A stretch of DNA of 64,000 nt from Lutimonas saemankumensis (lineage in GTDB: Bacteria; Bacteroidota; Bacteroidia; Flavobacteriales; Flavobacteriaceae): the NCBI RefSeq assembly GCF_020171465.1, contig NZ_JAIUZR010000003.1, forward strand, positions 868,001-932,000, in the 5' to 3' direction. A model generated the notes under the pieces. The model had not been told where the DNA came from. It saw only the letters and a program-made list of their open reading frames with translations, and made no database searches. Positions 14,428 through 50,578 of this stretch are shown here, piece by piece. Position 1 is the first letter of the stretch. Every line of letters begins with the position of its first letter. The position numbers were made by a program, and so were the translations under genes.

Positions 14428-14462
14428 CAAAAAAAAGCCTCAACTGATCTGTTGAGGCTTTT
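14428..14462 (-). terminator. Intrinsic terminator after the tiny peptide gene at 14546
   Basis: Perfect 10-bp stem (AAGCCTCAAC / GTTGAGGCTT) with a 6-base loop at 14435-14460. On the + strand it is preceded by a run of eight A and followed by TTTT, so on the minus strand it is a hairpin followed by eight T. It sits about 85 bases after the stop of the 37-residue peptide gene and before the molybdoenzyme gene, and could also act on the + strand. Confidence 0.85.
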
Positions 14463-14545: not shown

Positions 14546-14659
14546 TTATAATCCGTAGTTTCTGTAATTTGACCATCTAATTCTTTTACTGTCCTTAAAC
14601 GTTGAAAAATGATTAAAACGAATTTCGTTTGTTGCGTTACTAATTATTGTAGTTTTCAT
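14546..14659 (-). CDS. 37-residue basic peptide, member of a four-copy unrecognised family
   Basis: An ATG at 14659 opens a 37-codon frame ending in TAA at 14546. The peptide begins MKTTIISNATNE and carries the core KRIRWSNYRNYGL at its C-terminus, preceded by FSTFKDS. The core aligns without gaps to the peptides at 37643, 37798 and 50465 (KR[IV][KR]WS, then R, an aromatic residue and often G). It is basic and lacks a signal peptide or membrane segment. A leader with TATAAT and AAACCA lies just upstream and a strong terminator follows, so it looks like an independent short transcription unit between hsp20 and the molybdoenzyme gene. I do not know its function. It is too short for most gene finders. 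Confidence 0.75.
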   Translation of the reverse strand: MKTTIISNATNEIRFNHFSTFKDSKRIRWSNYRNYGL

Positions 14660-14679: not shown

Positions 14680-14774
14680 CATCAAATATCATCCGAAACA
14701 CTCTGATTTAAAATTTACATTTACCGAGTTGTCGAAAAACAATGACGAATTGTAAAAAATTTGAAAAATCAAAG

Positions 14775-14829: not shown

Positions 14830-15306
14830 TTATCCAACCACGATCTTTCTGGCTGGTTTTGGTTTTGCTTCTTCTTTTTTGGGTATACTCAGGCTCAAAA
14901 TACCATCCTTATATATAGCTTCAATTTTTTCTTCATCTACGGTTTCAGGCAAGCTGAAACTTCTTTTAAAAGATGCGTATCCATATTCCTTGCGGGAATA
15001 GTTTTCTTCTGTTTTCTCCTCTTCTTTTGATGCTTCCATGGAGATAGAAAGAGTTTCATCTTCTACATCAATTACAAAATCTGATTTTTTAAATCCCGGA
15101 ACTGCCATATCCAGTGTATAGGCATCTTCGTTTTCCTTAATATTAACCTTAGGGGTACTTAGGCCATTATTGAAATTTGTGACTTTTGAATTTCCCAGCT
15201 CTTCTCCAAATAACTCATCGATAAAAGACGCCCAGGCAGGAAAGCCAGTCATTGTATTATGTTTTCTTAAGATATTACCGTTTTTATTTACTATAAGATT
15301 GTTCAT
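14830..15306 (-). CDS. hsp20: Small heat shock protein (Hsp20/alpha-crystallin family)
   Basis: The 158-residue protein carries an alpha-crystallin domain at about residues 48-150. It shows PKVNIKENEDAYTLDMAVPG, FKKSDFVIDVEDETLSIS, the SFSLPETVDEEKIEAIYKDG signature and GILSLSIPKKE. The C-terminus has an I-x-V type anchoring tail (ARKIVVG). It acts as an ATP-independent cytosolic holdase that forms oligomers. The start at 15306 is the only ATG before the domain that gives a normal-length N-terminal arm. The upstream region has two palindromes at 15421-15459 and the gene ends at a clear terminator, so it is monocistronic and probably stress-regulated. Confidence 0.95.
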   Translation of the reverse strand: MNNLIVNKNGNILRKHNTMTGFPAWASFIDELFGEELGNSKVTNFNNGLSTPKVNIKENEDAYTLDMAVPGFKKSDFVIDVEDETLSISMEASKEEEKTEENYSRKEYGYASFKRSFSLPETVDEEKIEAIYKDGILSLSIPKKEEAKPKPARKIVVG

Positions 15307-37483: not shown

Positions 37484-37583
37484 TTTTTTATTTATATTAT
37501 TTTGCACTTCCTCACTAACCATTGAATTTCAAGGACTTTGTGTTAAATATTTGTTAATATAGTACTTGGTTTTACATAGTACT

Positions 37584-37625
37584 GTAACAAAATGGTTAAA
37601 TCATGCGTCTATATAGTAGAAACCA
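37584..37625 (+). promoter_or_regulatory. Shared upstream block of the peptide gene at 37643
   Basis: This 42-base block starts GTAAC and ends TATAGTAGAAACCA, 17 bases before the ATG. It aligns without gaps to 50408-50449 ahead of the peptide gene at 50465, with about 25 of 42 bases identical. The conservation is concentrated at GTAAC and in the last 22 bases. It looks like a promoter or regulator site plus the start of the leader. Confidence 0.55.
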
Positions 37626-37642
37626 ATTAAAAATAACACATT

Positions 37643-37759
37643 ATGAGAAATTTAGTAAGCACTCCGACAGAATCCGAATCAAGAAAATATGTAACATTTT
37701 CTAATTTCAGAAACACAAAAAGAATTAAATGGTCAGAATACAGACATTTCGGTCATTAA
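37643..37759 (+). CDS. 38-residue basic peptide of the four-copy family
   Basis: ATG to TAA encodes 38 residues beginning MRNLVSTPTESESRKYVTF and ending with the core KRIKWSEYRHFGH. Compared with the 50465 copy, 17 of the last 24 residues are identical, and four of those codons differ only silently. The peptide is basic (Arg/Lys outnumber Asp/Glu) and has no hydrophobic segment. It is preceded by the shared leader and followed 38 bases later by the second copy. No function is known to me. Confidence 0.78.
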   Translation: MRNLVSTPTESESRKYVTFSNFRNTKRIKWSEYRHFGH

Positions 37760-37797
37760 TTGAAAAAATTAAAGTCTAATACATCAAACAGTTTATC

Positions 37798-37911
37798 ATG
37801 AATACAAGTATTAACCTTTCAAGCACACAGGCCAGGGAACAATTATACTTTAGTGAATATAAGTATACAAAAAGAGTCAGATGGTCAGAACACAGACGTT
37901 ATGGATTATAA
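37798..37911 (+). CDS. 37-residue basic peptide of the four-copy family, second in tandem
   Basis: ATG to TAA encodes 37 residues beginning MNTSINLSSTQAREQLYF and ending KRVRWSEHRRYGL. The core matches the other copies, and its last residues are shared with the 14546 copy, while the N-terminus differs from the first tandem copy. It has no TATA/AAACCA leader of its own and ends 21 bases before a terminator, so it is probably co-transcribed with the 37643 gene. Confidence 0.75.
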   Translation: MNTSINLSSTQAREQLYFSEYKYTKRVRWSEHRRYGL

Positions 37912-37932: not shown

Positions 37933-37966
37933 AAACCTATTCGATATCTTGAGTAGGTTTTTTTTT
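37933..37966 (+). terminator. Intrinsic terminator after the tandem peptide genes
   Basis: A 7-bp stem (AAACCTA / TAGGTTT) with a 14-base loop, followed directly by six more T. It lies 21 bases after the second peptide stop. Confidence 0.75.
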
Positions 37967-50407: not shown

Positions 50408-50449
50408 GTAACGTTAGTGGATTTGATTACGTCATTATAATAGAAACCA
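50408..50449 (+). promoter_or_regulatory. Shared upstream block of the peptide gene at 50465
   Basis: The block starts GTAAC and ends TATAATAGAAACCA, 15 bases before the ATG. It matches 37584-37625 without gaps in about 25 of 42 bases, best at GTAAC and the last 22 bases. It is the counterpart of the element ahead of the tandem copy. Confidence 0.55.
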
Positions 50450-50464
50450 TCAAATTACACAATT

Positions 50465-50578
50465 ATGAAAGCAGATATCAACACATTCGCAACAGAGGAC
50501 AGAAGGTATGTTCAATTTTCAAATTTCAGAAATGCCAAAAGAATAAAATGGTCAGAACACAGACATTACAGATACTAA
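50465..50578 (+). CDS. 37-residue basic peptide of the four-copy family
   Basis: ATG to TAA encodes 37 residues beginning MKADINTFATEDRRYVQF and ending KRIKWSEHRHYRY, with SNFRNA just before the core as in the 37643 copy. It lacks the glycine seen near the end of the other three. The leader block at 50408-50449 matches that of the 37643 gene. I see no clear terminator before the convergent nuclease gene, whose stop is 28 bases away. Unknown function. Confidence 0.77.
   Translation: MKADINTFATEDRRYVQFSNFRNAKRIKWSEHRHYRY

Follow-up and report, generated by a model that had tools for sequence, protein, structure and literature searches.

The window analysed here, a stretch of 64,000 nucleotides of Lutimonas saemankumensis DNA, carries four short genes at three loci, two of them in tandem. 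The genes and the elements around them are listed below in the order of the loci discussed.

37561..37583, plus strand: AGTACT-type dyad AGTACTTGGTTTTACATAGTACT, putative PadR operator, the sole one in the window at ≤2 mismatches
37584..37609, plus strand: ECF-sigma-type promoter GTAAC-N17-CGTC, one of 2 window matches, both 5' of peptide genes
37643..37759, plus strand: peptide 1, 38 aa; frame translated, core aligned, selection tested
37798..37911, plus strand: peptide 2, 37 aa, second cistron; frame translated, selection tested
37933..37960, plus strand: intrinsic-terminator-like hairpin (1 found against 0.2 expected)
50408..50433, plus strand: ECF-sigma-type promoter GTAAC-N17-CGTC without a dyad, the second of the 2 window matches
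50465..50578, plus strand: peptide 3, 37 aa; frame translated, selection tested
14724..14753, minus strand: direct repeat ACAATTCGTC-N10-ACAACTCGG, another type of control site, sole match in the window
14546..14659, minus strand: peptide 4, 37 aa; frame translated, selection tested
14433..14462, minus strand: intrinsic-terminator-like hairpin (2 found in the stretch against 0.1 expected)

The four ATG-to-stop frames translate to MRNLVSTPTESESRKYVTFSNFRNTKRIKWSEYRHFGH, MNTSINLSSTQAREQLYFSEYKYTKRVRWSEHRRYGL, MKADINTFATEDRRYVQFSNFRNAKRIKWSEHRHYRY and MKTTIISNATNEIRFNHFSTFKDSKRIRWSNYRNYGL, as had been proposed in an earlier, sequence-only reading of this DNA. They share M...F-S...K-R-[IV]-[KR]-W-S-x-[HY]-R-x-[YF], the C-terminal core of which also agrees with that reading, and a check by eye of the 37643 and 50465 copies gave the same 17 identical residues among the last 24 and the same four silently differing codons. 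Intrinsic terminators had been claimed for two of the loci, and hairpins were found at 37933-37960 (plus strand) and 14462-14433 (minus strand); a terminator search after the 50465 peptide gene found none. The leader that all three loci were said to share is common to 37643 and 50465, which have the ECF-type promoter and the TATANTAGAAACC start region, but it does not extend to 14546, where the upstream DNA differs and only the last few bases are in common with the other two loci. The motif GTAAC-N17-CGTC occurs twice in the window (0.07 matches expected; two were reached in 1 of 100 shuffles), 31 and 33 nt upstream of peptide starts. No promoter motif of its own was seen in the DNA upstream of peptide 2. 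Directly upstream of peptide 4 and on the same strand lies an HSP20 small heat-shock protein gene (window 14830-15306, minus strand), with a terminator-like hairpin between the two genes.

In the organism's own genome (3.58 Mb, 11 contigs), a degenerate DNA pattern of the core, derived from the four window copies themselves, was found at 8 places, these four and four others, against 0 in the reversed control. One of these matches, at C3:223827, has no ATG frame and is probably due to chance. A profile of the four peptides gave 8 members: the four of the window, three at C4:209451-209735, which are tandem 24-aa forms such as MRTTIFRNSKRIRWSEHRNYAVKS, and a divergent copy at C4:606217. The latter is preceded by a 21-aa hydrophobic ORF, MIGILINIVISIINALEAILM, which is identical in two sister genomes. 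This divergent copy stands first, ahead of what we take to be an MFP-ABC-FtsX export operon, and is presumably divergent from a sigma54-type response regulator gene.

Distribution and conservation of the peptide family

The sequence-only reading had named further copies elsewhere as what would support it, and profile searches of the organism's own genome and of Flavobacteriaceae genomes find many. At E ≤ 0.01, the four-peptide profile detected the family in 17 of 60 genomes, namely 16 of the 22 genomes of the window genus (own genome counted) and one of another genus. With a 32-peptide profile at E ≤ 0.001, it was present in at least 60 of 397 sampled Flavobacteriaceae genomes (37 of 237 genera), a lower bound since scoring covered 19 first-look candidates in each genome. 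Of 127 pattern stretches found across 84,980 species genomes, 106 were confirmed; the array statistics given here, where so marked, rest on the best 80 of these 106 loci. The named genera among these 80 are Maribacter, Eudoraea, Robiginitalea, Pricia, Muriicola, Saonia, Poritiphilus, Ulvibacterium, Kriegella, Flagellimonas, Cerina and Lentiprolixibacter, the remaining records being unclassified Flavobacteriaceae, Bacteroidetes or Bacteroidia. Viral contigs gave 19 pattern stretches, none of which was confirmed.

The best 80 of the 106 loci hold 196 copies, 168 of them exactly 37 aa long, and one match without ATG was left out of each of three tallies, this one included. Tandem arrays of two to five copies are present in 66 of the 80, and 114 of the 115 gaps between tandem copies measure 23-123 nt.

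Selection had been proposed to act on the protein. Across sister-species orthologues the ratio is indeed well below 1, with a pooled pN/pS of 0.17 (pN 0.084, pS 0.48) for 21 hand-chosen orthologues, a set in which pairs are non-independent, unequal-length pairs were left out and silent sites are saturated in two comparisons. Peptide 3 keeps the same residues in two sister species across 3 and 7 silent changes. Moreover, the related genomes have no internal stops in these frames among the matches listed, in a profile search that could miss frameshifted copies. Folding of the four window transcripts was not in excess of shuffles and was slightly weaker (z +0.5 to +1.0), on which ground a structured small RNA was rejected; an Rfam search of the window gave no match. 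Given the pN/pS of 0.17, the silent changes, the stop-free matches and the lack of a folding excess, we read these genes as kept for their protein product.

No match to the 37-aa family was found in Pfam, NCBIfam or PHROGs (Pfam sub-threshold at E 0.05 and 0.11), and the two matches of a PDB sequence search (E 0.08 and 0.14) were taken as chance. A search of the open-access literature, outside which most subscription journals lie, found nothing on these peptides or on the dyad. Thus, as far as Pfam, NCBIfam and PHROGs go, the family is undescribed, and the earlier interpretation stands for its novelty, its additional copies and its protein-level selection, leaving aside the leader common to all three loci.

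Promoter, dyad and candidate regulators

The sequence AAC...CGTC is the usual form of ECF-sigma promoters. Among the best 80 of the 106 loci, GTAA[CT]-N16-18-[CT]GTC lies ≤260 nt upstream of 65 of 81 first copies, and the spacer is N16 at 64 and N17 at 1 of these 65. When the distance is limited to ≤140 nt, the promoter precedes 41 of 81 first copies against 0 of 115 later copies. Three of the 16 first copies that have no promoter lie ≤60 nt from the end of the locus. Arrays with a long leader often carry a second small peptide between the promoter and the first 37-aa copy, such as METLHPHQLRPRIYFEIGSGWNTDWLYDIKLKNNTNNN (net charge 0). A frame with G-x-G-W is present in 16 of 25 such arrays (e.g. 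L137, L138, L151, L165, L169, L182), and one example peptide had no Pfam, NCBIfam or PHROGs match.

In the organism's own genome, an extended form of the promoter motif (≤1 mismatch) gave 4 matches against 0 and 2 in controls, which is weak alone. The four matches stand before two peptide genes, an ECF sigma gene and a gene at C1:128935 (1 mismatch) that presumably encodes an ABC-permease-like protein. Family-wide, the composite element AGTACTGTAACA-N15-CGTCT (≤1 mismatch) was found in 86 of 199 genomes (198 genera), with 2 reversed-control matches; with the spacer of the window genus the scan matched in only 7 of 199 genomes, the 86 being obtained with a spacer one base shorter. A 37-aa peptide or one of a related 28-aa type is encoded in 77 of the 86 element-bearing genomes versus 15 of the 113 others. 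Element and peptide are therefore concordant in 175 of 199 genomes (77 + 98) and discordant in 9 and 15, and two of the 15 peptide-only genomes belong to the window genus, whose spacer is longer. The Fisher P value for this link is 4e-29, with kinship ignored.

Among the matches listed (30 loci), 25 of 28 exact composite sites are followed by a peptide that starts 28-66 nt downstream, 21 of the 28-aa type (e.g. MRTLNNNQLTGTLNGTKSNQWNCKRRYR) and 4 of the 37-aa type; this tally leaves out three loci with a one-mismatch site. The exact sites that lack the usual peptide are two in tandem at L230 and one at L239, where a 48-aa basic peptide is encoded. At L230, each of the two tandem composite promoters stands before a 188-aa frame, a non-peptide target.

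The 28-aa type was found in 128 of 397 genomes, both types in 6 and either in 182; like the 37-aa family, it is unmatched in Pfam, NCBIfam and PHROGs. One transcript (L299) encodes a pair of 28-aa peptides together with one of 43 aa that ends NFRDIKKNRWAERRIYCN, and this mixture suggests that the 28-aa and 37-aa groups are variants of one thing. In 28-aa genomes, a peptide of ~44 aa (e.g. ending IWKGTKRYAH) is often next downstream, at loci that include L218, L222, L223, L229, L235, L243 and L244; what we take from its motif to be an ExbD-like gene lies inside 13 of the 30 listed loci. The organism's own genome has a 28-aa peptide as well, MRTLLNNEYRNKLIKTNGSRWNTKRRFK (C3:860274-860357, minus strand), ~7.6 kb before the window, and no ECF promoter was seen upstream of it. 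Its gene is directly 5' of what we assume to be an ABC transporter operon.

The own-genome ECF sigma gene with the promoter motif lies on C1; the next gene, for 167 aa, has no Pfam match. The sigma product itself matches Pfam Sigma70_r2 and r4_2, and the best NCBIfam model is SigW, below its cut-off. Orthologues (E ≤ 1e-25) were found in 19 of 30 chosen genomes at 20 loci, and in 18 of these 20 loci GTAA[CT]-N15-19-[CT]GTC occurs 33-55 nt before the aligned ECF start, the usual sign of autoregulation and suggestive of it here. At the ECF genes read, the spacer is N17, as in the window genus, while most arrays elsewhere have N16, and by eye the -10 extensions of the ECF gene and the arrays are similar in the window genus only. 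Counting this orthologue alone (E ≤ 1e-25), it is present in 18 of 25 peptide-bearing versus 1 of 5 other genomes. Seven peptide-bearing genomes are without it (G017, G024, G061, G070, G080, G147 and G212, two of them incomplete), so that another ECF sigma may read the site there. An ECF sigma as the probable reader is thus well supported, this particular orthologue less so, because of these seven of 25 genomes and of its spacer, one base longer. A second, different ECF sigma is encoded near the arrays in 32 of the 80 loci (best 80 of 106). It was set aside as regulator, since the promoter precedes its gene in 1 of 32 loci, although it could read the array promoter without such a promoter of its own.

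The dyad, AGTAC[TC]-N11-[AG]GTAC[TC], stands immediately upstream of GTAAC. At all 65 array promoters in the best 80 of 106 loci it ends at the G of GTAAC, with 2-3 mismatches allowed at the arrays and the pattern refined on the same loci. At ≤1 mismatch, the organism's own genome has it in three places, upstream of peptide 1, of the short tandem copies and of a padR operon; at ≤3 mismatches the matches are not above control (26 versus 32). This operon, on C3, encodes a DUF4870 protein, PadR, a HAAS-PspC-LiaF-Toastrack protein and a DUF2807 protein, so that HAAS, PadR, PspC and Toastrack domains all occur in one operon (HAAS at 27.6 against a cut-off of 27 bits). All 30 chosen genomes have the PadR gene, and in 29 of them the dyad is found ≤1500 nt upstream of the padR operon (≤1 mismatch, relaxed pattern), whereas none of 300 shuffled sequences and none of the 29 stretches on the downstream side had it; in the remaining genome (G069) it was not found there, though arrays are present. 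Since genomes without the peptides carry the padR dyad, it is a feature of the padR operon independently of the arrays. According to the available text of PMC4534193 and PMC6624303, PadR-type repressors attach to palindromic sites, and autorepression is frequent among them. From its position, we read the dyad as a putative PadR operator sited to block the ECF promoter.

Within the window genus, loci of the 37643 class have the promoter in 11 of 11 cases and the dyad in 10 of 11, those of the 50465 class the promoter in 8 of 8 and the dyad in 0 of 8, and those of the 14546 class neither (0 of 6); the counts were made by name patterns, and unmatched loci (L028 for one) were left out. The 14546 class has instead the direct repeat ACAATTC...ACAGTTCGG in 6 of 6 loci (≤2 mismatches; 1 of 4400 shuffles), a pattern derived from the same six loci. 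We take this repeat to be LytTR-like. It also occurs at 3 of 16 arrays elsewhere that have no ECF promoter (best 80 of 106 loci). The window loci 37643/37798, 50465 and 14546 thus represent three conserved regulatory classes, the paralogues being, on this reading of their upstream DNA, sorted to different inputs.

Possible roles of the peptides

The 196 copies (best 80 of 106 loci) have a net charge of +4 to +9 and a median pI of 11.4; cysteine is absent in 188 of them, and the longest hydrophobic run is 4 residues. The K, R, W and R of the core are invariant or nearly so. As no hydrophobic run exceeds 4 residues, the peptides appear by inspection to have no signal sequence. The same run length in the 196 copies, together with a GRAVY of -0.9 to -1.4 for the four window peptides, led us to reject a type I toxin. 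An amphipathic membrane helix is not supported, helical moments being no different from those of shuffles (mean z 0.04, 164 peptides). The AlphaFold model is too weak to be used (pLDDT 60, pTM 0.19).

Protein-level selection, tandem arrays, the promoter and the dyad are observed in silico, and both elements also stand before the operons of their presumed regulators. On this basis we propose that Flavobacteriaceae have a family of small basic proteins of ~37 aa, with a related 28-aa group and 24-aa short forms, of which one to a few tandem copies would be carried per transcript. An autoregulated SigW-like ECF sigma would read the GTAAC-N16/17-CGTC promoter of most copies, and the dyad directly adjoining the -35 box would be bound by a PadR-type repressor whose gene shares an operon with that of a HAAS-PspC-Toastrack membrane protein. 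Under envelope stress the sigma factor would be released and PadR removed, and translation of the transcripts would then give a burst of small basic cytoplasmic protein. The K-R-x-x-W-x-x-x-R core would dock one specific anionic partner, for which RNA or the ribosome, RNA polymerase and an acidic protein of a stress complex are candidates. We hold the regulatory part, worded as an ECF sigma and PadR, to be likely, and the scheme as a whole, with undescribed basic microproteins, ECF-sigma and PadR gating, a stress burst and an anionic partner, to be somewhat more probable than not. The role as a cytoplasmic stress microprotein that docks an anionic partner through this core is, taken by itself, less probable than not and put forward as a guess.

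The closest known circuit seems to be sigC-lstR of Listeria, in which, according to the available text of PMC6624303, positive ECF-type sigma control and negative PadR-type control are likewise combined, so that two signals can be integrated. However, sigma, repressor and effector (an FtsW/RodA homologue) are described there in one operon, whereas in the present genome the sigma gene (C1) and padR (C3) are in separate operons and the main targets would be microproteins. Our padR operon has exactly the domains of the HAAS-PadR modules with PspC and Toastrack in PMC11237479; the available text of that study names no microprotein targets, and the link to the peptides made here rests on the shared dyad. 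In Flavobacterium psychrophilum, the SM6 promoters, compared here at the -10 box, likewise have a CGT -10 box that was assigned to an ECF sigma (PMC9723704). Listed under SM6 are, among others, an ECF/anti-sigma pair, an ABC ATPase and Rfp11, which is a short independent transcript, and induction at low nutrients is strong; no small-protein family is reported in the available part of PMC9723704.

Among the alternatives, the one that survives best is that, as the sequence-only reading had suggested, these are general nucleic-acid- or ribosome-binding basic peptides, which would bind RNA or DNA through their charge in stress or starvation and whose control elements would only set the timing. The strong positive charge, the high pI and the absence of an amphipathic pattern would fit such a role. 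However, a specific K, R, W, R motif is kept, beyond bulk charge, and no nucleic-acid-binding relative was found by sequence in Pfam or PDB, so that we consider this reading possible yet rather unlikely. Less probable still, the peptides could be feedback elements that adjust the stress circuit itself by binding its anti-sigma, HAAS or PadR proteins: no other target follows the element as constantly (25 of 28 exact sites among the matches listed), and a specific protein partner would fit the fixed core, but multi-copy arrays suggest a bulk need and the 14546 class lies outside the circuit.

There is a small chance that the peptides are secreted or modified, as RiPP precursors, bacteriocins or signals would be, and are made in tandem for dosage. 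The diverging N-terminal parts of tandem copies beside a fixed core, and the position of two own-genome copies before genes that we take to be of ABC-type transport, are what such peptides might show; yet the signal sequence is absent by inspection, with hydrophobic runs of ≤4 residues in the 196 copies. Moreover, among the 25 neighbour clusters listed, built from ORFs ≥100 aa only, none is found at more than 39 of 80 loci or under more than 13 of 27 genus labels, which were assigned by record title (best 80 of 106 loci); this argues against a shared modifying enzyme. That the transcripts act as regulatory RNAs with the frames secondary is the least probable reading, despite their shortness, the terminators of two window units and the listing of Rfp11, a putative regulatory RNA with strong predicted folding, under SM6 promoters, since the peptide genes show protein-level selection, no folding excess and, in the window, no Rfam match, and the available text of PMC9723704 calls such transcripts typically without coding potential. 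Rfp11 may be a counterpart of the peptide transcripts, although its reported strong folding counts against this.

Returning to the scheme of ECF sigma and PadR gating, what would be new is the microprotein family, its regulators being of already known kinds. For an unannotated microprotein family, this points to candidate regulators, to the condition that is likely to induce it and to a few mutants of interest, and with the composite element as a tag such genes may be located even where the peptides have diverged. Conversely, the PspC-HAAS-PadR pathway, which was proposed from genome context in the available text of PMC11237479, gains candidate targets. Many marine flavobacteria carry such clusters, and the two switches upstream of most of them resemble parts of an envelope-stress alarm. 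It is conceivable, at odds that we put only slightly above those of general nucleic-acid binding, that, in Flavobacteriaceae, the 37-aa and 28-aa microproteins together are a main set of effectors through which the PspC-HAAS-PadR and ECF envelope-stress pathways act. If so, they would constitute a new class of stress effectors, encoded in nearly half of the genomes sampled (182 of 397) and missing from the family libraries searched.
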